From a virus, in the IMG/VR virus record IMGVR_UViG_3300036985_004639, positions 1 to 29,019 of that record: DNA of 29,019 bases. One strand, given 5' to 3'. Every line of letters starts with the position of its first letter. Position 1 is the stretch's first letter. Under the pieces are notes generated by a model. The model saw only the letters and a program-made list of their open reading frames with translations, searched no databases and was not told the origin of the DNA. The position numbers were made by a program, and so were the translations under genes. Positions 121 to 29,019 of the stretch are shown one piece after another.

Positions 121-531
121 ATGCGCGTGAAAAATAGAATCCTGATCGCGGATACCGATCGCTCGGTACTCCACAATTTTGCGGAATACCTGCGCGAAAA
201 TGCTTTTTGCGCAATTACCACCCAATCAACGGTAGGGGCGTTGACCCAGCTTATCGAGGCCGGGCCTCCTATTGATTTATTTTTGGTGGATTTCGAAATC
301 GCAAAAGCGGGGGATTGGCACTTGATCCGATATATTCGGCGGACGCTGGTAATCACCCCGGTGCAATTGCCGATCATAGTATTCGCCCCTATTCTGGGGG
401 TGGATATCGAAATGACCCTCATGCGGGAAGAAATTAACGACTGGCTAGAAAAGCCCGTATGTCCGCTGGCTTTACTGCTACCTAAAATACGAGCCCTACT
501 CGGGCTAGAAGGGGCTACCAGTGGACAGTGA
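121..531 (+). CDS. orphan response-regulator receiver (REC) domain protein
   Basis: The 136-residue product is a single CheY-like receiver domain with no output domain. Strand beta1 (ILIADTD) carries the acidic pair Asp11 and Asp13. Strand beta3 (DLFLVDFE) places the expected phospho-acceptor at Asp57. The beta5 motif EKP supplies Lys111-Pro112. The conserved Thr/Ser after beta4 appears to be Ala89 (PIIVFAP), which may change the switching behaviour. In canonical family members, the Asp is phosphorylated by a histidine kinase. There is no clear Shine-Dalgarno sequence before ATG 121. The end of the gene overlaps the next gene by 11 bases, so it belongs to the phage cluster and is not an isolated host gene. 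The fold call is fairly firm; the role (host signalling decoy, regulator or structural adaptor) is unknown. Confidence 0.72.
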   Translation: MRVKNRILIADTDRSVLHNFAEYLRENAFCAITTQSTVGALTQLIEAGPPIDLFLVDFEIAKAGDWHLIRYIRRTLVITPVQLPIIVFAPILGVDIEMTLMREEINDWLEKPVCPLALLLPKIRALLGLEGATSGQ

Positions 532-5332: not shown

Positions 5333-7636
5333 ATGGCCAGCAGCATTTTTTTCGGAGGCAGGCTGATCAGCGTGCCGGGCTCTTACAGTGTGGTGGACGC
5401 CAGTGGGCTGGAGTCTGTCGGGCTGAGCGCGGCCGGGATCGTGGCGGTGATTGGGGAGGCCGAGGGCGGTATCCCGGTTTCGGAAATCGCCGACATCGAC
5501 GATTTCATCCGGTGCCGGAAGCCGGAAAAGGCGCGGGAGTATTTCCGCGCGGGCCCGCTCCGGGAAGCGGCGGACATGGTATTCGCTCCGGCGAAGGACG
5601 TGGCCATCCCGGGCGGGGCGGTCGAGATGGTGGCCATGAAGGTCAACCCGGCCACCCAAGCCACGGCACCCCTGGCCAACACCTACGGGGATGCGCTCAC
5701 GTTGACCAGCAAGGACTACGGGGCTTTCACCAGCCAGGTGAATGTCACGATCGAAACCGGGACCAGCCAGGGCAAGCTGGTGACCATCACGTTCGAGGAC
5801 GTGGTGGAGTCGGCGGACGATCTGGGCGGTGACGCGTTTTTCACGATCACTTACACCAAGGGGACCGGTGGCTGGGGCACCATGACCAGCGAGGTCGCCA
5901 GTGGTGGCCTGATCGCTTGCCGCGGGACCCGTACCAACCTCGGGCTGGACGACCAGATCGCGGGGCAGTTGTCGGGCAATAGTCGGGTCGAGGCGAAATC
6001 GTCGAGTGCTTCGGATACAGCCATCCAGTTGATCGTTTACGGCCTGGCAGCGGCGGGAACGGTCCAGCAAGAGAGCATCATCCTCGCCGGCACCACGGTG
6101 GTGGCGGGGCTTCTGACTTTCTCGAAAGTCATGGGCGCGCGGATAGTCGGCACGGCCGTGGGAACAATCACGCTCCAGCTCCTAGCGGCCGGGGCAACGG
6201 TGTTGACGGTAGCAGCAGGGGCCAACACGATGAAGGGCTTGACCCCCTGCGCTACTCTGTACGTGGGCAATACGATCGTTTACGCGATATCCAGCGGGGC
6301 CAGCACCAAGAGCGTGATCCTGATCGGTACGAGCGCGGCCGGAGCGGCGCAGATCGAAAAGGTGGTGTTGACCGGGGTGGTTTCCAAGCCCGGAGTTTCC
6401 ACCTGGAGCGAGATCACTTATATCGCCCTCGGCGAGGTCGAGGCGGCCCAGACGATCACTTTCTCGGCGGTGGCGCTCCAGACCACGACCCTGCAAAACA
6501 CCATGCAGAAGGTCGCGGACTACGTGAACGGGCGAAACAACGGGACCAATGGTTTCGTCCTCACCCAGATTTTGGGGCTGTACACCTTCGACCCGGCCAA
6601 CCTGGACGTGACGCTGGGCGCAGGCGGCGCGGTGGACTGCTACACGGTGAGCCCGAGCTATTATGCCAACCTGTGGCGGATCGTGGATTGGATCAATCAG
6701 AATAGCGCCTTTGTCACTGCGGAAGCGGCGACCGGCGCCAAGGGCGGAGCCCCGAGCAACACTACAGCAGCGGTATATCTGTCCGGCGGTAGCGAGGGGA
6801 CCACGGCGGCCGAGCACTGGCAGTTGGCTTTCAACCTCCTGAAACAGATCCGAGTCAACACGGTGGTGCCCCTGACCGCTGACCCGGCGGTGCACGCCAT
6901 GGGCGACGCGCACTGCGCCTATATGTGCGGGATCGGCCGGAGCGAGCGCGACCAGGTGGTAGGCCTGAAAAATACGGCCATGACCGACCTGGCCACCAAG
7001 ACCGAAACAAAGACCCAGATCGTGGCGCTCAATTCGCGGCACACCCGGGCGGTATCCCAGGCGATGGAGCGGTACAACACGGCCGGCGAGCGGGAGGAGT
7101 TTGACCCCTGTTACCTGGCTGCGGTGGTCGCTGGGATGCAGGCGGGCTCGACCGTGGGCGAGTCGCTGACTTTCAAGTACGCAAACGTGCTCAAGCTCCG
7201 GCAGGCCTCGAGCTGGAACCCGACCGATGACGCCGAGGAGATGATCCAGGCGGGCCTTTGCTTCCTGGAGCTGGTGGACGGGATCGGTCGGCGGGTGGTC
7301 CGAAACAACACCACCCATCTGGCGACCAACAATTCCAGTTATGTCGAAGCAAGCGTCAATGAGGCGGTGAATTTTGCCGTTTACAACCTGCGCGGAAACC
7401 TCGAGGTGGCCGTCGGCCGCAAGGGCTTCTCCGGGACGGTCAACGGCACCAAGGGCGTGGCAATCGCCTCCCTCGGGTTGCTCAAAGACGAGGAAATCAT
7501 CGTGGCCGATCGGTCGCTGGCCGTGGAGCTAGCCGTGGATGTGATGGAGGTGTCCGTGGAGATGGCCCCAGTCATTCCGGTGAATTTTGTGAAAACAACC
7601 GTCCACCTCGTCACGACGCGGATCGCCGCGGTGTAA
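5333..7636 (+). CDS. contractile tail sheath protein
   Basis: The 767-residue product starts at ATG 5333 behind GAGGAGA. The N-terminus (MASSIFFGGRLISVPGSYSV) matches the sheath pattern of a short arm followed by a P-G-xY strand. The C-terminal third has the conserved sheath core: YMCGIGRSERDQVVGL, LAAVVAGMQAGSTVGESLT and a final strand VNFVKTTVHLVTTRIA. It would polymerise around the tail tube and contract during injection. T4 gp18 is 659 and Mu gpL 495 residues, so this one is enlarged. The extra length lies at about residues 130-390, which holds two related beta-rich segments (about 236-282 and 331-380). The direct downstream tube gene confirms the context. Confidence 0.9.
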   Translation: MASSIFFGGRLISVPGSYSVVDASGLESVGLSAAGIVAVIGEAEGGIPVSEIADIDDFIRCRKPEKAREYFRAGPLREAADMVFAPAKDVAIPGGAVEMVAMKVNPATQATAPLANTYGDALTLTSKDYGAFTSQVNVTIETGTSQGKLVTITFEDVVESADDLGGDAFFTITYTKGTGGWGTMTSEVASGGLIACRGTRTNLGLDDQIAGQLSGNSRVEAKSSSASDTAIQLIVYGLAAAGTVQQESIILAGTTVVAGLLTFSKVMGARIVGTAVGTITLQLLAAGATVLTVAAGANTMKGLTPCATLYVGNTIVYAISSGASTKSVILIGTSAAGAAQIEKVVLTGVVSKPGVSTWSEITYIALGEVEAAQTITFSAVALQTTTLQNTMQKVADYVNGRNNGTNGFVLTQILGLYTFDPANLDVTLGAGGAVDCYTVSPSYYANLWRIVDWINQNSAFVTAEAATGAKGGAPSNTTAAVYLSGGSEGTTAAEHWQLAFNLLKQIRVNTVVPLTADPAVHAMGDAHCAYMCGIGRSERDQVVGLKNTAMTDLATKTETKTQIVALNSRHTRAVSQAMERYNTAGEREEFDPCYLAAVVAGMQAGSTVGESLTFKYANVLKLRQASSWNPTDDAEEMIQAGLCFLELVDGIGRRVVRNNTTHLATNNSSYVEASVNEAVNFAVYNLRGNLEVAVGRKGFSGTVNGTKGVAIASLGLLKDEEIIVADRSLAVELAVDVMEVSVEMAPVIPVNFVKTTVHLVTTRIAAV

Positions 7637-16233: not shown

Positions 16234-17646
16234 ATGCCCCGATTTCAAACGAAACGATACGAGCAAATCCTGACTGAAATGCTAGCCAAGCTCGTGGCGC
16301 GCACGGACCTATCCGATATTTCCGATTCAGCGGCGGTGAAACACTTGCTGGCTACGGCGGCCCGACAAGATGACGAGCAATACTACCAGATGCACCTCCT
16401 CTTGCAGCTTTTCTCCATAGACAAAGCGACCGGCGAGGATCTGGACGAGCGGGCGATGGATATCCAGCCCGGGACCATCGTGCGGGCGGCTGCGACTAAA
16501 GCCGTGGGGACGGTGGTGCTCACGCGCGCGGGTACCACGGGGACTATCATCCTTCCGGCGGGAATTCGGATGAAAACTGCGGGGGGAATAATTTTTGTGA
16601 CTACGGCGGCGGGGAGTATCACCGCGTCGAGCCCCGAGCAGATCGGCGGGCATGGGGTCGGCCGGGATTCTGGGGTGATCCCTGTTATCGCGGAAGTTGC
16701 TGGCGTGGCTGGAAATGTGACCTCGAACACGATCATAAAGTTTGTCAGTAAACCGGTAGGGGTCGATTCAGTGACAAACCCTTCCGGCTGCATCCACGGG
16801 GTGGACACCGAGACCGACGCGGCATTTCGAGCGCGGATCAAGCTATTTGTGGCCTCACTTGGGCGATCTACGGTGCCGGCGATCGAAAGTTGCGTCCTTC
16901 AGTTAATTGATCCGGATACCGGGGCGGTGGTCCTTTACAGCAAGGCGGTGGAGGACATCATCAACCCGGGGAATGTAACGCTGTACATCGATGACGGCAC
17001 CGGTTATGCCGAAAGCGCGGAAGCGGTCACCGGGGAAGAGCTGACCGAGGGGCTCGGAGGGCCTCCGGCGGATACCGCGGCCGGAGGAGAAACTACGCTG
17101 TATCTGGATTACGCGCCGATCAAGCTGAATGCTGGCATCACCCTGGTTAGCTCGGAGCGTGGGGAGTTGACCGAGGACGACACCTATTTTGTCAACCCAG
17201 CCAGTGGGCAGATTGTTTTTGACCCGGCGCTGGTGGCGACAGAAACAATCACGGCGCATTATCACAAATACCTGGGGCTGATTGCTCTGGCGCAAAAAGT
17301 AGTGGATGGCGATCCGGACGATCGAGTGAATTATCCTGGCTACCGGGCGGCGGGGATTCTGGTGGTGGTGCAGGCCCCCCAGGTGCTCATGCAGACGGTA
17401 TTAATATCTGTGACGGTGGCGGAAGGGTACGATGACGCAAGCGTGAAGGTGGAGGTGGCCGAGGCGATCAAGACATACATCAATAGCCTGGGTATTTCTC
17501 GGGATGTGCTCCGCTCGGAGCTGATTTCCAGAGCCCAGCGAGTGACTGGGGTTTACGACATCGTGCTGACCACTCCAGCGACGAACGTGATTCTATTGGA
17601 TGACCAGCTAGCGCGGGTTTCCGACCAGACCATTACTGTGAACTAG
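16234..17646 (+). CDS. baseplate J-like wedge protein
   Basis: The 470-residue product starts at ATG 16234 behind GAGGTGAG. It has the baseplate J pattern: an N-terminal helical part (TDLSDISDSAAVKHLLATAA, then GEDLDERAMDI); an early beta domain (GTVVLTRAGTTGTIILPAGI, then GGIIFVTTAAG); and the later signature (VDTETDAAFRARIKLFVASL) that precedes helix GRSTVPAIESC. The C-terminal part carries VQAPQVLMQTVLISVTVAEG. J/gp6-like proteins form the wedge ring that transmits the contraction signal to the sheath. The region around residues 265-350 (EELTEGLGGPPADTAAGGE onwards) is an extra beta-rich insertion. Directly follows the gp25-like gene, the usual W-J order. Confidence 0.88.
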   Translation: MPRFQTKRYEQILTEMLAKLVARTDLSDISDSAAVKHLLATAARQDDEQYYQMHLLLQLFSIDKATGEDLDERAMDIQPGTIVRAAATKAVGTVVLTRAGTTGTIILPAGIRMKTAGGIIFVTTAAGSITASSPEQIGGHGVGRDSGVIPVIAEVAGVAGNVTSNTIIKFVSKPVGVDSVTNPSGCIHGVDTETDAAFRARIKLFVASLGRSTVPAIESCVLQLIDPDTGAVVLYSKAVEDIINPGNVTLYIDDGTGYAESAEAVTGEELTEGLGGPPADTAAGGETTLYLDYAPIKLNAGITLVSSERGELTEDDTYFVNPASGQIVFDPALVATETITAHYHKYLGLIALAQKVVDGDPDDRVNYPGYRAAGILVVVQAPQVLMQTVLISVTVAEGYDDASVKVEVAEAIKTYINSLGISRDVLRSELISRAQRVTGVYDIVLTTPATNVILLDDQLARVSDQTITVN

Positions 17647-18068: not shown

Positions 18069-19907
18069 ATGGCGTACAAAGGCAAAGTCTACACATCGTT
18101 TTTGGGATCGGCCTACCACCAGATCGAAATCATCCGGGATTTCCTTCTGGCCTGCGGCTGGAAGCTAGTGGGCCCCACGGCGACGGCGGCCATGCGTACC
18201 GCGCAGGATGACCTCCATGGGCATATCCTGGGCTGGTATCTGCATTCCAATGGCGAGGACGGCACCAAGGATCTGCACCTGCATATGGGGGTGCAGGAGG
18301 ATAGCGCCTCGCCGATGTCCTGCCCCTCCTATTCTTACCTGTCCGCGAATATCGATGACACGGTGACCACTATTCCAGTCAATGACTCCAGCGTTTTTGC
18401 CGCTACCGGGCGGGTGAAAATCGGAGGCGAGCTGATCACTTATACCGGCGCTGCGGCCAATGAGCTGACCGGCTGCACCCGGGAGGCGGATGGATCTACC
18501 AAGGCGGCTCATTTTAGCCGAGAGGTAGTGGTGCAGTGCGGGTTTTTCAAGCCCTATTTTGATCTGTATTCTTACCGGGATTTGATCCATTCCATCGCCG
18601 AGTCGGATGATGCTTTGGGGGTTACCTGGGTACTGGGTATTGCTACCACGACAGGAGCCGTTACCGGGCTGGATGGATACAAATCCGGGGCTTTCAAGTA
18701 CGGGGCGCTTCTGCGCGTGCTCGAGGGGGATCACGCGGGCAAGGTCCGGCCTATCTGGGCAGACGTTGCCGGGGATTTGTCTTACGCGCCGTTTTTCAGC
18801 GCACCCGGGCCAGTCAATTGCGATATCGTCTCCCAGGGATTTCTCCCGTGCGTCTCTCGTCGAGACGAACGGGCGGGCGCTAATTGGGCGCACCATACTA
18901 GCGCGCCGAAAGTTGGTTTTGACGGAGACGGGTCAACCGCGTTGCTTTGCGTGGGGAGCAAAGACGGATTTCTGCTAGGTTCACAAATTGGTGAATCCGA
19001 TTACTACAATTTTGTGTACTACGGCACATACATTTCCAATGGCTCGCCGGTGCTAGACGCGATCAGCTCCCATACGGTACCCGGCGGAAATATCCCGGCG
19101 GCGGCAACCATCGTGCACGTTGAGGACACCACCAAGTATGTGGTCGGTCGGAAATACCGGATTCTCGCCCAAGACTACCAGGATTGGATCGATAACTGGG
19201 ATCGGAGCGCGGATACAACTATGGGGGCGACTCCCGGAGATTGGCCAGACCTTGACGTGGACGAGATCCCAACCGAGCTGGTATTGGTCGATTCGATCGA
19301 TGCGGTCAATAGCGAAATCACTTTCCGGACTCCGTTGATTTATTCTTATCGCGCCTATGCAGTAATCGCCGAAGATCCGCAACCGATCATTTCTTACTGT
19401 GATACGGGATCAGTCTTGTCGGGAGATTTAATAAATTCCAGTGGATACGCTATTCAAAATCCATTTTTTGCTGTAGCCACGTACTATTTAGCCTCTTGCC
19501 CGCACCATAGAGTGCGTTGGAGATGTTGTTTTTTGGATCTAGGCAATACGGAAGATCCCTGGGGCCCCGTCGGTGCCCCCAATTATATTCTATGCACTGA
19601 ATGCGCCCGGCAAACAATGAACCCCGGTGAACATATGAATGATGGGCTAGACGGATATACCGACTCCTGGCCATTGGCGTTATACACGGTTGAGGGGGTA
19701 GGCGACGATACCGGCATTAACTCGATAGCGCGATTACTAGGGTATCTCCCTATAATTCGAAAATGCCAGTATGATTTTGAAGAATTCGAAGACGAGAGAG
19801 GCGAAGACTACGGCTACATTATGTGGAATAGGCAAGCTGCGCTATTCGAATGGGTGCAGCACGAGACATTTGGATACCACGTTGTGGGGCCCATGCTTTG
19901 GAGTTGA
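18069..19907 (+). CDS. large tail-surface protein with Cys-rich C-terminus
   Basis: ATG 18069 lies behind GAGGTGA that overlaps the upstream stop. The 612-residue protein opens with a compact domain (KVYTSFLGSAYHQIEIIRDF, then LLACGWKL). At about residues 90-155, it has a beta module (TTIPVNDSSVFAATGRVKIG, then ELITYTGAAANELTGCTREA) often seen in tail proteins. The C-terminal 140 residues, from about 470, contain a cysteine cluster: Cys477, Cys486-Cys487, and Cys509-x2-Cys512 (CTEC). The cluster could bind metal or form disulfides. Nucleotide composition there is visibly more AT-rich than in the first half of the gene. A fibre or adhesin role is inferred from location after the baseplate genes; no enzyme motif is recognised. 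Confidence 0.55.
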   Translation: MAYKGKVYTSFLGSAYHQIEIIRDFLLACGWKLVGPTATAAMRTAQDDLHGHILGWYLHSNGEDGTKDLHLHMGVQEDSASPMSCPSYSYLSANIDDTVTTIPVNDSSVFAATGRVKIGGELITYTGAAANELTGCTREADGSTKAAHFSREVVVQCGFFKPYFDLYSYRDLIHSIAESDDALGVTWVLGIATTTGAVTGLDGYKSGAFKYGALLRVLEGDHAGKVRPIWADVAGDLSYAPFFSAPGPVNCDIVSQGFLPCVSRRDERAGANWAHHTSAPKVGFDGDGSTALLCVGSKDGFLLGSQIGESDYYNFVYYGTYISNGSPVLDAISSHTVPGGNIPAAATIVHVEDTTKYVVGRKYRILAQDYQDWIDNWDRSADTTMGATPGDWPDLDVDEIPTELVLVDSIDAVNSEITFRTPLIYSYRAYAVIAEDPQPIISYCDTGSVLSGDLINSSGYAIQNPFFAVATYYLASCPHHRVRWRCCFLDLGNTEDPWGPVGAPNYILCTECARQTMNPGEHMNDGLDGYTDSWPLALYTVEGVGDDTGINSIARLLGYLPIIRKCQYDFEEFEDERGEDYGYIMWNRQAALFEWVQHETFGYHVVGPMLWS

Positions 19908-19935: not shown

Positions 19936-22900
19936 ATGGGTGCTTCCTTTCTGATTATCGAATCCGCTGGCGATCGGGTACCGGATTCTTACGTTGAAAC
20001 CGCGGTAGTGTCCATTCCTACTTCGTTCAGCGCGCCGTTGAATATCCCTGAAAATACCGTGGATCTAACGTGGGTGAATCCAATCGAACGGATTTTCGAT
20101 CGCGTGATGATCCGCGAATCGACCACGGACCACCCAGCTACTCCAGCGGCCGGGAATTTGGTTTATGAGGGCCCGCTCGAGGCCTACGCGCACGCGACGA
20201 CGCTGTACGAGGTCCACTACTACTCGATTTGGTCGGTGAGCACTGAAGGGGATTATTCAGCCAAGGTTGAAAGCCAATCGGGGCAGGTTGCGGCTCCACC
20301 GGATATCACCGATCTGGTAGTGGATACGGATTTCGCAGAAAGCAAAGTAGTTCTTACCTGGACCAATACCGGGGGCACGTTTGACCATGTAGAAATCTAT
20401 GAAAGCGAATCCGGGTACCCGACGGTTCCAGGCGCGGATCGCCTGGTGTACTCGGGGGCGCTCGAGACCGTTGACGATCCGGGGCTTCTCCTGGGAGTGC
20501 TCCATTACTATGCGATTTGGTCGGTCAATAGCGTAGGCGGATATTCCGATAACGCGGATACAGGCATTTCTGAAATTCTAGGTATCCCGGACGCAATCAC
20601 TGATTTCGGAGTGGAGACAGTTTTTGCGGAAGACAAGGCGACGCTTACCTGGACAAATCCAGCCGGATCTTTTGATCATGTCGAAATTTATGAAAGCGAA
20701 ACGGGTTACCCGACCATACCCGGCGAGGACCGCCTGGTGTACTCTGGCCCGCTCGAGACTTTCGACGATGAAGGGCTCGATCTGGGTGTGGTGCACTACT
20801 ACTCCATCTGGACAGCCAATGTCGAGAATGCCTATTCGCTCACGGCTGATACTGGGTTAACCACCCTCTTACCGCTTCCGGATGCAATCACGGACCTGGA
20901 GGTGATTTCCGATTTTCTAAACGAAAAGGTCACGCTGAACTGGACCAATACCGGCGGATCTTTCGATCATGTCGAAATCTATGCGAGCAATTCGGGTTAT
21001 CCGACGATACCAGGCGCAGACCGCTTGGTATATTCCGGATCGGCGGAAACGGCGGACGATCTATCAGTAGAATTCGACATCCTGCACTACTATGCCATCT
21101 GGGCGGTAAACGCGCTGGATGAGTACTCGCTTTTATCGGATACCGGAATTACCGAAATAGAGGGGCTCCCAGCAGCAATCACGGATCTGGGCCTGGTAAT
21201 GAATACCGAGGCCGGATCTATTACGCTGAGCTGGACGAATCCCGGCGGCACTTTCCACCATGTCGAGCTTTACGAGAGCGAAGCTGGATACCCGGTAACC
21301 CCGGGAGCTGGGCGGCTGGTATACTCTGGGCCCAATGAGACGGTGGATGACCTCGATCTGGATCTAGATCCGATCCACTACTATGCCATCTGGACGGTCA
21401 ATTGTTCAGACGCTTACTCTGCGACCTCGGACACGGTTGCCTCCACCGATGTATTCGGGCCGGACGCCATTTTCCCGTTTGTTGCGACCCCAGGCCCGGA
21501 TCTGATCACGCTGACCTGGACAAACCCAACCGCGGCGGATTTCGCAGGGGTGACCATTCGACGCTCGAGCAGTGACTACCCGGCGACCCCTACCTCGGGC
21601 ACGCCGGTGTACCACAACAGCGGGCACTCCTACGTTGACGCGGGGCTGGTGTACGGCACCACCTATTTCTACTCGGCCTGGGCTTACGATGAGGTGCCCA
21701 ACTATTCCGAGGTAGCGCATGCAACCGGCACACCGGCCCCCAATTACGCGGTGGAGGCCCGACTGGGCCCCGTGGGGCTTATCCAGGCGCTCACCCAGGC
21801 AATCGGAGAATCGGATACTGAAATCGGTGGATTTCGGCTGACCAGGTTGTCGGCCGTGGCGAACGTCGGAGCTACTACTTTTTCGGTTGAATCCACGAGC
21901 GGCTGGGATGAATCCGGCAAGGTGGGCATTGATGGGGTGCTGTACAGCTACGCGGCCAAGACCCTGGCCAGTCTGACCGGGATCACTCATAGCGCGTCCG
22001 GGGTGACGGTTGCCGGCGCGCGGGTAGCGCACCGGATCGAGGCGGTGGTGGCCGATTGTTCCCGCACTTCGAGCGCGGTGGATTTGTGTCGGCGGGCCAT
22101 GCTGGTGGAGTACGCCGAGGCCGAGGACTTGAGCGTGATCGGTCGAAACCTGGGAGTCAACCGGCTTGTTTTCTTTTCTGAGGATGCGCAGTATCGGCGG
22201 CTGATCAAAGCCATGGCCTACAACCCCAAAGGCACTACATTCGGCGTGGAGCTGGTGCTGAATGCCATTCTAGGGGAAGGAAACTATGAGCTATGGGAGG
22301 ATTTGATCCAGCACCCGTGTATCCTGTATGTGTACATTCCCGTCGGCGAGATCATGGGGACCAGCTTTATCGGTCGAGCTTTCCTGGATGCAGCATTTTA
22401 TGGGGTGACCTCTGGCGCTGGAAAAGACACCATAGTGATGGATCACGCGCCCTTGTTCGTCGGCACGGTCCGCTTGCTGGACCTGGGGGAGTTATTTGAT
22501 TTCCGGGTGCGTATCCCCGGAGCAATCACCTACCTGTACCATTCGGATGCGCTGGTGGAGCTGGCGGCTTTCACCTATTCAGGAGCCAGCACTCCAGAGA
22601 CGGATTTTGTTGCCGTGGTTTCGGCGCAAGCGTGCAGTCGCCTGAGCACTTTCGGAGCGACTGTTTTCTACACCATGGCCGACACCCAGGGGGCGCGGGT
22701 TGCTGCGGTCACCGAAGCGGAGGTGAGCTGGCTGATTTCCGTCTCGGGCGCGGTCAAGACCGGTGAGCTGGCGCAGGCGTCAATCACCATTTTCGATGGT
22801 GCTTATCAAATAAATTTGGGGCTAGATACCGACGGCGGCACCGGGATCGAAATCGGGCTGTATGCCACCTCGGGCGGGGGATTCCTGGGAAGCACTTTCA

Positions 22901-24090
22901 CCGGACTGAAATCGACCTGGTACGAGGTATCGCTCCGAAAGCACGGCGCGGATACCGTGGAGCTTTGGGTGGATGGGGATCTGGTGGCGACGGTGGCCTA
23001 CGGGAGCTTTACCGCGGCGACCACCGATCACAAGATCGAGTGGGGGATTCGCGGAGCGCCCAGCTCGGGCCTGGTGGTGGACACCAAACAGCTCGGGGTG
23101 CAGCTCGAGACCGCTACGGACTTCTGGAATGCCCGAGGAGCCCTCGGAGTGGTAGGGACGGCCAACCCCACCCGATTCTCGGATGGAGGGGCCGCTATCC
23201 TATCCGCTGGCGACGTGGGGAGCTATCTGGAGATCACTGGGTCGGGGATCGAGAATGCCCAAGGGGGGAACAATAACGGGCAGTGGGAGATTGACACCCT
23301 GGTGTCTCCGGGGATTGTGACGCTCAAGGGGGCCGTGCACCTGGCCGTGGTGAGTTTTTTGACCGCCTATCCGACGCGGATCACGGTCGAGGACCTCGAG
23401 GCTTTCAGCTACCCCGATGATTTGGGTAAGCAAATCGTGATCACGGATTCAGAGCTGGGAAACAATGGCACCTACGTCATTTCGGATCTCCTGGAGGTGG
23501 GAACCCTGCTGAACCTCGACGAATTCGAGACCCCGGTGGCGGCTCGGACCAATGTTTGCGAGGTGGTGTCTGCAAGTTTTGTGTCGGAATATCGGGCATC
23601 TTATCAGCTTTTCCCGATTTTCTCGACCGAGACCGGGCTGGATTGGGAGCTATCCGACGCGGGGAGCTTCACCGATGAGACCATCACGCTCCGGCAAGGG
23701 GGCTGGGGCACTGCCCTGGTGATGCGCGTGGGGATCGAGGACATGCTTTCGGGACAGCTCTTGCCCGATGCAGGGACGTTCAATGAATTGCTATCGGAGG
23801 CCCCTGAAGCAATTTATCGGTACTACCCATTTTATTTGTATGACCCCTTCGCCACGGCTGAATCCTACCTGGACAGCATTACCGCGGCCGGGGTGCTTAC
23901 CCAGTTTGTGACCGTGATCGAGGGCGGCGGGATCGTGCGGCTGGTGGAGGTCGATCCGGGCCCGCTTGCGCTTAACCTGGAATTCAACACGCCGATGCTG
24001 GGTGCTGGCCCGTTGCTGGACCCGGCGAGCTACACCGTCACGGTACCGTCTACTGAAGAGGACTGGGATGTCGATACGGAGCTTGTTTGA
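19936..24090 (+). CDS. Fn3-repeat, gpI-like and lectin-like multidomain tail protein
   Basis: ATG 19936 follows GAGGTGACC. The 1384-residue product starts with six Fn3-like repeats of about 96 residues (about 20-600), with recurring TWTNTGGTFDHVEIYES and HYYAIW motifs. Residues 604-870 look like a gpI/wedge-type tail protein: SVIGRNLGVNRLVFFSEDAQ, then YNPKGTTFGVELVLNAILGE and CILYVYIPVGE. This includes a beta module like that of the 18069 gene (about 635-710). Residues 880-1065 form a concanavalin-like lectin fold (GLKSTWYEVSLRKHGADTVE, then LWVDGDLVATVAYG). The C-terminus ends in an SbsA-like Ig strand (NLEFNTPMLGAGPLLDPASY). It may bridge the baseplate to fibres and bind glycans. The stop overlaps the next ATG (TGATG). 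Confidence 0.68.
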   Translation: MGASFLIIESAGDRVPDSYVETAVVSIPTSFSAPLNIPENTVDLTWVNPIERIFDRVMIRESTTDHPATPAAGNLVYEGPLEAYAHATTLYEVHYYSIWSVSTEGDYSAKVESQSGQVAAPPDITDLVVDTDFAESKVVLTWTNTGGTFDHVEIYESESGYPTVPGADRLVYSGALETVDDPGLLLGVLHYYAIWSVNSVGGYSDNADTGISEILGIPDAITDFGVETVFAEDKATLTWTNPAGSFDHVEIYESETGYPTIPGEDRLVYSGPLETFDDEGLDLGVVHYYSIWTANVENAYSLTADTGLTTLLPLPDAITDLEVISDFLNEKVTLNWTNTGGSFDHVEIYASNSGYPTIPGADRLVYSGSAETADDLSVEFDILHYYAIWAVNALDEYSLLSDTGITEIEGLPAAITDLGLVMNTEAGSITLSWTNPGGTFHHVELYESEAGYPVTPGAGRLVYSGPNETVDDLDLDLDPIHYYAIWTVNCSDAYSATSDTVASTDVFGPDAIFPFVATPGPDLITLTWTNPTAADFAGVTIRRSSSDYPATPTSGTPVYHNSGHSYVDAGLVYGTTYFYSAWAYDEVPNYSEVAHATGTPAPNYAVEARLGPVGLIQALTQAIGESDTEIGGFRLTRLSAVANVGATTFSVESTSGWDESGKVGIDGVLYSYAAKTLASLTGITHSASGVTVAGARVAHRIEAVVADCSRTSSAVDLCRRAMLVEYAEAEDLSVIGRNLGVNRLVFFSEDAQYRRLIKAMAYNPKGTTFGVELVLNAILGEGNYELWEDLIQHPCILYVYIPVGEIMGTSFIGRAFLDAAFYGVTSGAGKDTIVMDHAPLFVGTVRLLDLGELFDFRVRIPGAITYLYHSDALVELAAFTYSGASTPETDFVAVVSAQACSRLSTFGATVFYTMADTQGARVAAVTEAEVSWLISVSGAVKTGELAQASITIFDGAYQINLGLDTDGGTGIEIGLYATSGGGFLGSTFTGLKSTWYEVSLRKHGADTVELWVDGDLVATVAYGSFTAATTDHKIEWGIRGAPSSGLVVDTKQLGVQLETATDFWNARGALGVVGTANPTRFSDGGAAILSAGDVGSYLEITGSGIENAQGGNNNGQWEIDTLVSPGIVTLKGAVHLAVVSFLTAYPTRITVEDLEAFSYPDDLGKQIVITDSELGNNGTYVISDLLEVGTLLNLDEFETPVAARTNVCEVVSASFVSEYRASYQLFPIFSTETGLDWELSDAGSFTDETITLRQGGWGTALVMRVGIEDMLSGQLLPDAGTFNELLSEAPEAIYRYYPFYLYDPFATAESYLDSITAAGVLTQFVTVIEGGGIVRLVEVDPGPLALNLEFNTPMLGAGPLLDPASYTVTVPSTEEDWDVDTELV
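20020..21750 (+). repeat. six tandem Fn3-coding repeats, about 290-base period
   Basis: Equivalent positions such as the codons for PDAITD recur near 20299, 20587, 20878, 21166 and 21460, a spacing of 288-294 bases. The middle four copies are alike even at DNA level; TTTGATCATGTCGAAAT-type stretches appear near 20382, 20670 and 20961. The outermost copies have diverged. The similarity makes this a likely site of unequal recombination. Confidence 0.8.
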
Positions 24091-24563
24091 TGAAAATCAA
24101 AATTGCCTTTTCACGGGACATGGCAGTGAATGCAGCTTTGATTGCTCCAGGCAATTACGGGATAGTGCTAACCCCCGATGGGGTGCAACCGCAAGTTGAA
24201 TCGGTAGAAGTGCTGGATGCGTTTTCCATCAAAGTAATTTTTGATAAGCCGATGGAGCTAGACTCCATTTTAACTGATCCTGCAAATTACGAAATCGATT
24301 TCCTTTGGAGCCATGTCACTTTTACAGTCGAAGCATTGAGCGCCACGGAAGTGAAGGTGACTTTTAGTGAGGACATGCTAGAAAATGGGGCGCTGGTGGC
24401 TACCGATAATTACGACTTGGAAAACAAAGTAGACCCCCCTACTGAGTGGGATTTTGTTCCGGAGGCGGATACTGCGACTGAAATCATTGTCACGTTTTCA
24501 AATCCCATGACCATCAATCCGGATCTGTATGATCCCGCCAATTACGTGATCAGCGAGGTATAG
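24090..24563 (+). CDS. SbsA-like (Big_5) Ig-repeat protein
   Basis: I choose ATG 24090 in the TGATG overlap, with GGAG (24078-24081) upstream, over TTG 24087. The 157-residue product consists of four SbsA/Big_5-type segments: IAFSRDMAVNAALIAPGNY, KVIFDKPMELDSILTDPANY, KVTFSEDMLENGALVATDNY and IVTFSNPMTINPDLYDPANY. Each carries the family's F-x-x-x-M ... NY core. No enzyme or membrane features are present. The first segment starts abruptly at a mid-domain strand, as if the protein continued from the similar C-terminus of the upstream 1384-residue protein. A spacer or adhesive shaft role is likely. Confidence 0.65.
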   Translation: MKIKIAFSRDMAVNAALIAPGNYGIVLTPDGVQPQVESVEVLDAFSIKVIFDKPMELDSILTDPANYEIDFLWSHVTFTVEALSATEVKVTFSEDMLENGALVATDNYDLENKVDPPTEWDFVPEADTATEIIVTFSNPMTINPDLYDPANYVISEV

Positions 24564-24565
24564 CT

Positions 24566-25729
24566 ATGGCCCTAACAGTAGAGCATGTACAAATTTTGAA
24601 TTCGAAAGAAGTGAAGCTGACCGTACAAGAAATGCGCGATGGGGCAACCTACGAGCTAACCGTCTCGAACGTGCAGGACATCAACGGCGATACGATAGAT
24701 CCGGCCAATGCTACCGCGGAATTTATCGGGATCGGGACCTTGCCGCAAGTGGTGAGTATCGCCAAAGTGGATGTCACCCACCTGTCAGTGCTATTCGATG
24801 AAGTCATGGCCGATGACGCCAATTTCATCAATGCCGCTAATTACGCGGTGACGGGCCAGAGCACTCCAGGCGTGGTCGGTGTTGCGCGATCGGTTGACGG
24901 GCTTACCGCTACTCTGGAGCTGGACGAGGATTTGGAAACCGGGACCTACGGAATAGCTGTAGAAAACGTAGTAGACGCTGGTGGCAATTTAATTGATGGG
25001 GCTCATGATTATGCAGAGACCGCGATAGTTATCGGGCCGTGGCGTGATCATGCTTCTCTGGGTACTAACCTGGTGGCGCATTACAAGATGGAGGATGAAA
25101 CCGATTCTTCCGATAATGGATACGATGGGGCTTATGAAAGCGGGACTCCCGACTCGATTACCGGAAAAATAGGAAATGCTCTGAGCTTTGTTCCCTCGGT
25201 TCGGATGAATATCCCAGCCAATGCGGAATTGAACGCGCTGAATGCTTTTACCATGGCCGGCTGGTTCAAAATTACAACGATCGCCGGTTCATGGCATACG
25301 CTGTGGGGGCGTACCGGGCAAGTGAGCATGACTGTGGTCGGGAGCGGGGATCATGTCGGGAAAGCGTACATGGGAATTTATGTAAACCCGCCCACATATA
25401 CACTCAGGGAAACGCTGACTTCGACGACGGCGCCCGAGAATGAATGGTGCTTTATCGTGGGGTCCTTTAACGGATCTACTGCAACCAAAGTACACATAAA
25501 TGGCGTAGTACGCGGAACCGCGTCTTTTACGAGCACCACCCTTGCTACGGTGGATGAGACCCATCCATGGCGAATCGCGATTGCGCAAAACAATACGGAG
25601 AAAAACGGAAATGAGGACATGCACAGCCCGTTGGCTGGCGGAGCCGACGAGCTAACTGTATGGGGCCGGGAATTGACCCAACCGGAAATAGATTATCTGT
25701 ACAATAGTGGAGCCGGGCGTGCTTTCTAA
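24566..25729 (+). CDS. tail adhesin with Ig-like anchor and LamG lectin domain
   Basis: ATG 24566 lies two bases after the upstream stop, behind GCGAGGT. Residues 1-155 are Ig-like, containing two SbsA-type units (PQVVSIAKVDVTHLSVLFDE, then INAANYAVTG) and are clearly homologous to the start of the next gene. Residues 165-385 form a textbook LamG/concanavalin-like lectin domain: LVAHYKMEDETDSSDNGYDG, then KIGNALSF, FTMAGWFKI and DELTVWGRELTQPEIDYLYN. LamG domains bind carbohydrates, often with calcium, so a receptor-binding role at the tail surface is inferred. It is a 387-residue protein with no recognisable catalytic motif. Confidence 0.75.
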   Translation: MALTVEHVQILNSKEVKLTVQEMRDGATYELTVSNVQDINGDTIDPANATAEFIGIGTLPQVVSIAKVDVTHLSVLFDEVMADDANFINAANYAVTGQSTPGVVGVARSVDGLTATLELDEDLETGTYGIAVENVVDAGGNLIDGAHDYAETAIVIGPWRDHASLGTNLVAHYKMEDETDSSDNGYDGAYESGTPDSITGKIGNALSFVPSVRMNIPANAELNALNAFTMAGWFKITTIAGSWHTLWGRTGQVSMTVVGSGDHVGKAYMGIYVNPPTYTLRETLTSTTAPENEWCFIVGSFNGSTATKVHINGVVRGTASFTSTTLATVDETHPWRIAIAQNNTEKNGNEDMHSPLAGGADELTVWGRELTQPEIDYLYNSGAGRAF

Positions 25730-25744
25730 AGTGAAGGGGACTCC

Positions 25745-28700
25745 ATGGCAGTGCTCACGGTACAATCAGTTGAAATAATCAGCAGCACAACGGTACGCTT
25801 GGAAGTCACCGGTATGCAAGTGGGGGTAGTTTACAATGTAGAAGTGAGCGAGGAGATAGAATCCCTTTCTGGCAGATTGATAGATCCAGCGTACAATGCT
25901 GCGGATTTTACGGGAGACGGCACTATTCCCCAGCTTCTTTCGGTCGTGTTGGTAGACGCGCTGCACATAGATTTGGTTTTCTCAAAGCCCATGATTGACG
26001 ACCCCATATTGCTGTACCCTACCAACTATACCGTAACTGGCGACATGGATAGCGGCACCACCCTGGTGGAGCGCAATGAAGCTGGAGACGGGGTGCGGCT
26101 CACGTTAGCAGATCCTTTGCTGTACGGCGACTATCGCGTTGCCCTGGACAATTGCCCCGATACCGATGGAAATCTTGTACCGCCAGAAAACGCAGAAATG
26201 GATTTTTCCTCTGTTCGAGAAAATCCGGTAAGCGATCTGGTTACGATGCTAACCGACAATACGGACGAGTGCCTGATCGAGGTTAGGGCAATTGGCATAA
26301 TGGTGGATGGAGTATACCCAGAAATCGCACTTAGGCTTTTCGGGGAAGAGGTGGTCCGCTGGAGTGATGTCCGGGGCAAGGTCGAATACTATCAAGCGGA
26401 AAGAAATGGCTATCTGCATGCGGGAAAAGTAACCCCCGCTGATATCCAGGTGGCGTATACCAATGACGTGCTAGGCGGCCCCGAGCAAGAGTGCTTGGCT
26501 TTCTGGGAGCTGGACGCGGCTTCTACAGTAACGGCCGCATACCAATATGAGCGGTTCGATCGCTTTCGCCCTTCCGCAAAAATGACGCTGACTGCCCCCT
26601 CGGCCGGAGGAGATGTCAATCGGCTTAATGCGCTGAGCCAGGATCTCCCCGAGGTGGTGGTGGGTCAGACGGTTATCATTTCTGGCCAGGTTAAAATGCT
26701 GGAGGGAGTTACCGCGCGGGTGCGCTTTACGCTAGGGACGGAAGAGGGGCTCCTGGTATCCACTCTGGATTTGGAGGGGACAGGGGACTGGGAAAGTTTT
26801 CGACTGGAGCCCCTGGTGGCGACTCTGGGGAATACAGAGGGGCGAGTTAGCTTGATCGTGGTATCCCCGGATGTCGGGAGCACTGTGGCCGAATGGCGAG
26901 ATATTCGGGCGGGGCTCGAGCTTCTGGAGAATTGTAATTTCGAGACCACGATCGAGCCCTGGTACACCCATCTCGGGAGCAAGTGTTTCCCTACGCTCTT
27001 GACCGAAGAGGCGGGCCCTTACGGTCACGCCGAGCTTACGATCCTGGAGACAGAGCCCAGCAAGCGGTTTTACCATAGCGTTTCTTTTGATGCTCACCGG
27101 GGCAAGGTGGTGCTTTTTGGCGGGAATGATGGAGTGGTCAAGGGCGATACCTGGGAATATACAACGGCCACCCATACCTGGGCAAAAATAACACCGGCCA
27201 CGACCTCCCCCAGTGCTCGAGGCCTGCACGCCGCGTGCTACGACAGCCTACGGCACCGGGTAATCATCTCCGGCGGGCAAGATAGCGGTGGGGGACATTT
27301 GCAGGACCTTTGGGCGTGGGATGGAGTGGACTGGACCGACATCACGCCGGTGGGCACCAAGCCCGGGGCTCGGCGAGCGCATGCGATTGCCTATGATTCC
27401 AATCGTGACGTGATCATGCTCTTTGGCGGGGTAGCCAGTGTAAAAAACAATGAAACCTGGGAGTATAATTGCGCAACCGGTTTGTGGGCTGAGATTTTCC
27501 CAGTCGCAGGCATAAAACCGTCTCCTCGCCAGTATCACACCATGGAATACGATACCGTGAAAAGACGGCTGGTGCTCTTTGGAGGTAGGACAGAGACCAA
27601 CCATTCGGATGAGACCTGGGAATACAACGGAGGGATTCAATCCTGGGCGCTGATGACAATAGCGGGGGATAAGCCGACCGCGCGGGATGAGCACAAAATG
27701 GCCTATGATTCGGTGCGTAGGCGCATGCTTATTTTCGGCGGGAACGACGGGGCTTACAGTGCTACTTCTTTTGATGACGAAACCTGGGAATATGATAGCG
27801 CGACCGTGAGCTGGAGTATGGTGCAGGGCGGCGGAGATCCTGGAGGTAGCAATCCAATGGGGCGGGTTGCTTTCGGCATGACATATGACTCTATTGCCCA
27901 GCGTAGTGTGCTATTCGGCGGATGGACAGGGGCCATCCGTAATAATGAAACTTGGGAATTTTCAGGGAGCACGACAAGCTGGGCGCTGCAATATGCCGGG
28001 TATGACCCTCTGAATTACGGATCAAGCCATTGGAATTCTATCCTCCAGGCTCCGGGAGAAATCCCCGACGGATCGCAGATCCGACTTCGCGGAAAATTCA
28101 GAGCCCCAGTGGATACTGAATTGCGTATCCACGTATACGCCATACCGTGGACCACGGGGGTGATTGGGGCCTGGGGGCCCTTTTCTGGATCAGGAGACTG
28201 GGAGGATTTCGAACTAGCTGATGTGGTAGTGGATACCGACCATCGCGATGTGCAAATCCGGTTGGCGATCCATCTCCCAGATGCGACAGGGAGCTGGGCT
28301 GACTGGAAAGATATTTCGCTCACGCGAAACATTATCCGAAACGGCACTTTTTCCGACCGAGGAGCGTTGATCGACGCGGTTTTGATTGACGGGAAAATTT
28401 ACGAGACCGAGGGCGCCGAGGTGCTATCCACGGGATCGTGGCTTCCCGGAGACGGGGCGTTACCCAGCCCGGGATACCGGCAAACCGAGGTGCTGACCAA
28501 TAACGGGTATTTCGATTTTGCCGGGGTGAGTGACGAGGAGATCCTGGATGGTGTTGACGCGCGGATCGATACCTACAGGAAAGGAAACGGGGTCATTTCC
28601 GTAGTGAATGGGGTTGGCCAACCGGTGGTAGGGGTTGACGTGACGGTGGAGCAGCTTACCCATTCTTTCCTTTTTGGGTCGGGTATATTCGAATGGTATG

Positions 28701-29019
28701 AGAGTTATGTGGCCCCAGGGTATCCTCCTCTGACCGAGGCCCAGCAGCTTTGGTCCGATACGTGGCGCGCGTTGTTTTTGGACGTTTTCAATTTCGCAAC
28801 CCTCCCCTATTACTGGGTGAGCGGCGAGCTGGAAAATGGGTCCATGCTTCACGCGGCAAATTACGAGGCCCTAGCCTGGTGTCTGGCCAATGGAGTACAG
28901 GCCAAGGGGCACCCTATCTTTTGGAACGCGGACGAGCCAGCGTGGATCAATAATTGGAGTGATCTAGATGCGGTAAAAGCGCGGGTTTTCGGATACCTCG
29001 AAAAGTGTATCGGAAATAG
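25745..29019 (+). CDS. tail protein with Ig-like anchor, Kelch propeller, CBM-like and GH10-like domains (partial at 3' end)
   Basis: Starts at ATG 25745 behind GAAGGGG and stays open to the window edge (1091 codons plus two bases). Residues 1-155 match the anchor of the preceding gene (PQLLSVVLVDALHIDLVFSK). Residues 225-390 look like a CBM4/9-type jelly-roll, and a second copy begins near 392 (ENCNFETTIEPWY). It is interrupted at 440-748 by six Kelch repeats (HTMEYDTVKRRLVLFGGRTE type, each with a GG and a WEY/WEF), then resumes to about 860. From about 938 it follows a GH10 glycanase pattern (DARIDTYRKGNGVISVVNGV, then FNFATLPYYW at 1015-1024 and KGHPIFW at 1054-1060). The catalytic Glu motifs would lie beyond the edge, so activity cannot be judged. 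Confidence 0.8.
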   Translation, partial: MAVLTVQSVEIISSTTVRLEVTGMQVGVVYNVEVSEEIESLSGRLIDPAYNAADFTGDGTIPQLLSVVLVDALHIDLVFSKPMIDDPILLYPTNYTVTGDMDSGTTLVERNEAGDGVRLTLADPLLYGDYRVALDNCPDTDGNLVPPENAEMDFSSVRENPVSDLVTMLTDNTDECLIEVRAIGIMVDGVYPEIALRLFGEEVVRWSDVRGKVEYYQAERNGYLHAGKVTPADIQVAYTNDVLGGPEQECLAFWELDAASTVTAAYQYERFDRFRPSAKMTLTAPSAGGDVNRLNALSQDLPEVVVGQTVIISGQVKMLEGVTARVRFTLGTEEGLLVSTLDLEGTGDWESFRLEPLVATLGNTEGRVSLIVVSPDVGSTVAEWRDIRAGLELLENCNFETTIEPWYTHLGSKCFPTLLTEEAGPYGHAELTILETEPSKRFYHSVSFDAHRGKVVLFGGNDGVVKGDTWEYTTATHTWAKITPATTSPSARGLHAACYDSLRHRVIISGGQDSGGGHLQDLWAWDGVDWTDITPVGTKPGARRAHAIAYDSNRDVIMLFGGVASVKNNETWEYNCATGLWAEIFPVAGIKPSPRQYHTMEYDTVKRRLVLFGGRTETNHSDETWEYNGGIQSWALMTIAGDKPTARDEHKMAYDSVRRRMLIFGGNDGAYSATSFDDETWEYDSATVSWSMVQGGGDPGGSNPMGRVAFGMTYDSIAQRSVLFGGWTGAIRNNETWEFSGSTTSWALQYAGYDPLNYGSSHWNSILQAPGEIPDGSQIRLRGKFRAPVDTELRIHVYAIPWTTGVIGAWGPFSGSGDWEDFELADVVVDTDHRDVQIRLAIHLPDATGSWADWKDISLTRNIIRNGTFSDRGALIDAVLIDGKIYETEGAEVLSTGSWLPGDGALPSPGYRQTEVLTNNGYFDFAGVSDEEILDGVDARIDTYRKGNGVISVVNGVGQPVVGVDVTVEQLTHSFLFGSGIFEWYESYVAPGYPPLTEAQQLWSDTWRALFLDVFNFATLPYYWVSGELENGSMLHAANYEALAWCLANGVQAKGHPIFWNADEPAWINNWSDLDAVKARVFGYLEKCIGN
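27068..27988 (+). repeat. six Kelch-type repeats coding a beta-propeller
   Basis: Six successive units of about 50-60 codons each carry the order aromatic/His - YDS-like turn - V-x-x-FGG - (D/N)xTWEY - W. Examples are HSVSFDAHRGKVVLFGG, HAIAYDSNRDVIMLFGG and GMTYDSIAQRSVLFGG. Six copies would close a six-bladed propeller. The units have diverged at DNA level, unlike the Fn3 repeats upstream. Confidence 0.8.

Follow-up and report, generated by a model that had tools for sequence, protein, structure and literature searches.

Introduction

GH10, a family of glycoside hydrolases, comprises enzymes with a preference for β-1,4-xylan. On phage tails, glycan-cutting domains of other folds prevail: among 984 fold hits of predicted depolymerases obtained with DepoScope, 97.9% were β-helices or β-propellers, while TIM barrels made up 10 of the 984, about 1% (PMC11326577). 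The TGD domains of Acinetobacter phages are TIM-barrel tail depolymerases (PMC11823257). In the Herelleviridae phages Vp4 and Deep-Blue, baseplates rich in carbohydrate-binding modules (CBMs) bind host polysaccharide, on which their adsorption depends (PMC11406892). For Caulobacter phage Cr30, a predicted xylanase directed at β-1,4-xylan is mentioned in a review (PMC5380687). Among cellular enzymes, AcXyn10A is an endo-β-1,4-xylanase, and Fsa02490Xyn, with 41% identity to it, additionally acted on the bacterial polysaccharide gellan gum (PMC12485897). Here, we analyze an open reading frame (ORF) at 25745-29019 (plus strand) of the viral record IMGVR_UViG_3300036985_004639 in IMG/VR; the whole record, 29,019 bases long and evidently a fragment, is referred to below as the window. 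The ORF encodes at least 1091 amino acids and is open at its 3′ end, where the contig stops. We propose that its product is probably a distal fibre protein from the tail of a large contractile-tailed phage, with a GH10 endo-β-1,4-glycanase near the C-terminus.

Results

The ORF at 25745 breaks off inside a GH10 domain

The N-terminal half of the GH10 domain occupies 28532-29017 (plus strand; residues ~930-1091 of the ORF) and is cut by the contig end. Leader β strands come first, followed by FNFATLPYYW and then by KGHPIFWN. The initial annotation had placed a GH10-like domain here, as the tip of a phage tail protein, and its frame, coordinates and quoted motifs all held, with residues 938-1091 containing YRKGNGVISV, GQPVVGVDVTVEQLTHSFLFG, FNFATLPYYW and KGHPIFWN. 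A profile built from 17 relatives found in Planctomycetota and Verrucomicrobiota genomes (the clade profile) matched the window with 130 bits (E = 8e-39), against a top score of 8 bits for 2000 shuffles, and hhalign returned a probability of 99.9 for the half-domain. When the PDB was searched with phmmer, the best solved structure was that of the xylanase AcXyn10A (8b73_A, E = 1.4e-15 over 132 residues). The clade profile itself matched 143 distinct PDB sequences at E ≤ 0.001, nearly all of those shown being GH10 xylanases, and reached GH10 xylanases down to E = 3.5e-143. Collectively, the clade profile, the shuffles, hhalign and the PDB matches make it certain for practical purposes that this is GH10 sequence, from the N-terminal half of the domain. 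Its proposed position at the tip of a tail protein is supported as well.

A search with hidden Markov models had been suggested as a check, and its outcome was divided. Pfam PF00331 alone stayed below its gathering cut-off on the fragment (E = 0.008, 15.9 bits versus 22.1) and gave no match at E ≤ 0.1 to the whole protein, whereas the clade profile, made from relatives that do match PF00331, gave the strong match described above. The PF00331 alignment covers profile positions 53-109, that is, 57 of 311, and the sub-threshold score is explained by the small number of profile positions that the fragment overlaps. Full-length clade relatives that were tested against Pfam matched PF00331 at E = 1e-40 to 4e-36. 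No β-helix family appeared in the Pfam scans; the ORF product has kelch and GH10 instead.

Conserved residues are kept and both catalytic Glu are predicted past the contig end

Whole-genome searches gave about 40 relatives in all, of which 17 went into the clade profile and 40 into the conservation counts. The window keeps all 12 of the N-terminal columns that are at least 95% conserved among these relatives, and 10 of the 11 that are 80-95% conserved. The active-site residues that GH10 domains conserve in this half are present, namely the His and Trp of GHxxxW and the E and G of the β2/β3 region. His1056, Trp1060 and Asn1061 are as initially annotated, but the Asn, which had been taken for an oddity, proved to be a trait of the nearest relatives: this site holds His in 18 of the 40 and Asn in 7, and the seven Asn carriers are the best-scoring relatives, all with both catalytic Glu. 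The canonical GH10 motif after β2, EN-x-x-KW, is typical and is not required in this clade. The window has TLPYYW there, and since the endo-xylanase 8b73 (TLPFYW) and close relatives lack the motif too, its absence says nothing on membership.

Both catalytic Glu are present in 38 of the 40 relatives. The acid/base Glu lies 46-49 residues past the equivalent of His1056 in 37 of these 38, and the nucleophile Glu usually follows ~105-109 residues beyond it. Extrapolation of these spacings puts the acid/base Glu at ~29048-29059 (residues ~1102-1105), some 30-40 bases after the contig stops. The nucleophile is placed in the same way at ~29363-29385 (residues ~1207-1214), some 345-370 bases after that point. 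The initial annotation was correct in placing the catalytic residues outside the window, but both are predicted to be much closer than the extension of ~700 bases that it suggested. Because both Glu would fall past the contig end, we infer the missing C-terminal half that would bear them, and catalysis with it, from the relatives.

The two relatives without the Glu pair, L018 and L020, are large clade members from one planctomycete genome (G002). Both Glu positions are lost in the alignment, their N-terminal motifs are altered too (KAHPLLW, KGASPVRF), and by these features they are probable pseudo-enzymes. They bring up another explanation for the window, in which a GH10-derived pseudo-enzyme has kept the barrel and the sugar groove, has lost one or both Glu, and acts as a non-cutting, receptor-binding lectin. 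Such a lectin would fit with the other likely binding modules on the same fibre, with the window's long branch in the tree and with the many CBMs that serve adsorption in SPO1-like baseplates (PMC11406892). The degenerate relatives, however, carry changed N-terminal motifs, whereas the window keeps every near-invariant residue of this half, and we regard a pseudo-enzyme as unlikely.

Relatives are cellular and distant

A genome scan recovered four relatives with 34-36% identity in planctomycete and Kiritimatiellia metagenome-assembled genomes, and the closest cellular relative of the GH10 part of the window is 36-44% identical. In the tree, the window has no supported sister group and sits on a branch of length 1.17. 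The window's closest relatives are xylanase-type enzymes encoded in genomes of Planctomycetota and Verrucomicrobiota, which accords with a special case of the proposed glycanase: a virion enzyme whose target is xylan from plants, or biofilm matrix, instead of the host's own surface. The phage would then hold onto, or move through, material where a plant-degrading host grows. A weak match to the xylan-binding family CBM60 in the same ORF points in this direction but falls under its cut-off, and we advance this target tentatively, as a possible but not the likely one.

GH10 was not found in other phage tail genes

In the collections searched, GH10 was not found as a depolymerase family in any phage tail gene, neither among 50,697 phage records examined by tblastn nor in scans of IMG/VR. 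The GH10 matches within the phage collection were all unannotated ‘Bacteriophage sp.’ faecal scaffolds. The two that were examined, both from human faeces, resemble bacterial sugar-utilisation loci and not phage (MT835797.1, with GH3 and sugar transport, and MT835631.1, with GH67 alongside SusC/SusD), and the faecal-scaffold matches were therefore rejected as phage evidence. IMG/VR alignment scans, which need short conserved peptides and may leave near-identical records hidden, confirmed no viral GH10 relatives. The canonical GHTLVWH pattern was found in 15 contigs. Most of these matches arose by chance outside GH10, and the genuine GH10 genes, few in number, were free-standing or partial. In the one examined in context, IMGVR_UViG_3300013021_000009, an integrase stands between a GH10-CBM gene and a GH5/GH43 gene on one side and helicase and tape-measure genes on the other; lying beyond the integrase and beside the GH43 xylosidase, this GH10 is probably in the host flank of a provirus. 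Provirus flanks of this type could lead to xylanases being wrongly called viral.

The ORF lies in the tail module of a contractile-tailed phage

A contractile tail was identified by matches to a sheath, a tail tube-like protein, baseplate J and a sheath/tube initiator. Family matches place the sheath at 5333-7636 and the baseplate J/wedge protein at 16234-17646 (both on the plus strand), and the GH10 ORF is distal to baseplate J, within the tail/baseplate module. An overlapping contig (L007/G001), 100% identical over the tested stretch, extends upstream only, without the GH10 gene, and carries capsid, scaffold, protease and minor head genes. Its capsid protein is 37% identical to those of SPO1-like Bacillus phages, and the sheath of the window is closest to Pseudomonas and Bordetella myophages. 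The ORF at 25745 very probably encodes a tail fibre from a large SPO1-like myovirus.

The overlapping contig ends at ~19193, which leaves 25745-29019 supported by a single assembly, and a second copy was looked for and not found. Both facts would be expected if a bacterial GH10 gene had been joined onto a phage tail contig during assembly. Yet the frame is unbroken from its phage-type N-terminus, the codon usage and GC content of the GH10 part are typical of the phage genes in the window, and even the closest cellular relative is far from identical to it. We consider an assembly artefact very improbable.

Architecture of the fibre ORF and its neighbors

The ORF begins with an N-terminal base region of Big_5/Ig-like type (25745-26179, plus strand; residues 1-145), the Big_5 match itself being in the preceding ORF. 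Over these ~145 residues, the GH10 ORF shares 38% identity (E = 1e-24) with the N-terminus of that preceding ORF, a paralogous fibre protein at 24566-25729 (plus strand) which has the same base and a LamG/ConA-like lectin domain at its C-terminus. Read from their sequences, the two ORFs are one base with two different tips, GH10 in one and LamG in the other. Beyond the base is a CBM60-like stretch (26276-26482, plus strand; residues 178-246), with a weak match at E = 0.003 and 18.4 bits versus a cut-off of 28.2. A first CBM4/9-like β-sandwich follows at 26546-26965 (plus strand; residues ~268-407; weak Pfam match, E = 0.05), and then a kelch-type β-propeller at 27047-28048 (plus strand; residues 435-768; PF24681, E = 1e-46; PF13415, E = 1e-42). 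The remainder of a second CBM-like sandwich, related to the first (E = 2e-9), lies at 28049-28462 (plus strand; residues ~769-906), and from this arrangement the propeller is apparently inserted into the second sandwich.

Upstream, a short ORF at 24087-24563 (plus strand) contains related Ig-like repeats, 34% identical over 108 amino acids to the N-terminus of the GH10 protein. It is preceded by a 1384-residue tail protein (19936-24090, plus strand) with a weak LamG match and, on reading its sequence, apparent FN3-like repeats. This protein has a related stretch of ~100 residues in common with the tail protein at 18069-19907 (E = 8e-6), residues 89-157 of which match a tail protein of Pelagibacter phages.

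Three further observations concern the structural module. The sheath protein is long (767 amino acids), and its matches cover ~63-65% of it in two pieces, which suggests an inserted domain of at least ~200 residues. The window ORF at 1643-2665 is set apart from its counterpart on the overlapping contig (L009:1532-2554) by one or more substitutions, including R to P, and the samples may therefore contain two closely related strains. Lastly, a short ORF at 121-531 (plus strand) inside the module has a weak match to a response-regulator receiver (E = 6e-6), below the cut-off.

Discussion

On the evidence above, we lean towards a tail fibre whose distal catalytic domain is a true GH10 and which also bears a kelch propeller and binding modules of the xylan type. 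Several points weigh against it. The catalytic half of the domain is beyond the contig, and attempts to extend the contig in IMG/VR, with back-translated peptide patterns and with the terminal nine residues, returned no record. Inactive forms exist in the clade, as the loss of both Glu from L018 and L020 indicates. The structure model of the half-domain had a predicted local distance difference test score (pLDDT) of 45.5, too poor for a fold search, as was the model of the CBM region (pLDDT 31), and the CBM assignments all fall below Pfam cut-offs.

In the mechanism that we propose, the N-terminal domain in common with the preceding ORF would anchor the fibre protein to the particle. The two CBM4/9-like sandwiches, the CBM60-like stretch and the kelch propeller would make up a glycan-binding or spacing shaft. 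The GH10 tip would be endo-acting and would cut a xylan-like or related backbone of the host surface polysaccharide or of the surrounding matrix, and this cutting would let the tail reach its receptor. By analogy with the CBM-rich baseplates of SPO1-like phages (PMC11406892), the shaft probably binds the glycan that the tip would cut; both the substrate and the assembly of the protein on the virion are predicted here. If the proposal is true, a glycanase of the plant-biomass type can be recruited to a phage tail, the host is predicted to have a β-1,4-linked surface or matrix glycan, and there is a testable route from fibre sequence to substrate.

Among cellular proteins, the Planctomycetota and Kiritimatiellota GH10 proteins L002-L005 resemble the window over the N-terminal half (33-37% identity, KGHPxxWN with Asn), but are products of cellular genes, ~450-485 amino acids long, and lack kelch or tail-fibre modules. 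AcXyn10A of Acetivibrio clariflavus (PDB 8B73) has leader strands followed by FNFxTLPFYW and then by KGHPxxW, an arrangement that it shares with the window, and it falls under the same clade profile. AcXyn10A and the related Fsa02490Xyn of Fervidibacter sacchari are GH10 endo-xylanases and, unlike the window protein, free bacterial enzymes with a complete barrel and both Glu.

Comparison with phage proteins qualifies the earlier view of the tip as an unusual depolymerase class: it would be rare but not unique, since published surveys already hold a few TIM-barrel tail proteins (PMC11326577, PMC11823257). Like the protein proposed here, these have a TIM-barrel glycan-cutting domain on a tail protein; they differ in that tblastn found no GH10 sequence match to them in the phage collection. 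Vp4 and Deep-Blue likewise have SPO1-like myophage tails rich in xylanase-type CBMs, although the CBM folds there were recognized from structural comparisons and a single short region was matched to Xyn10B (PMC11406892); neither phage gave a GH10 match by tblastn. The predicted xylanase of Cr30 would also be a phage protein for β-1,4-xylan cutting, but the protein meant could not be identified or confirmed as GH10: tblastn gave no GH10 match in Cr30, and a Pfam scan of seven Cr30 proteins gave no glycoside hydrolase. The β-helical tailspikes and depolymerases differ from the window protein, which has no β-helix match, in fold and mechanism family, and resemble it in being modular, with a conserved N-terminal base and a variable glycan-active tip.
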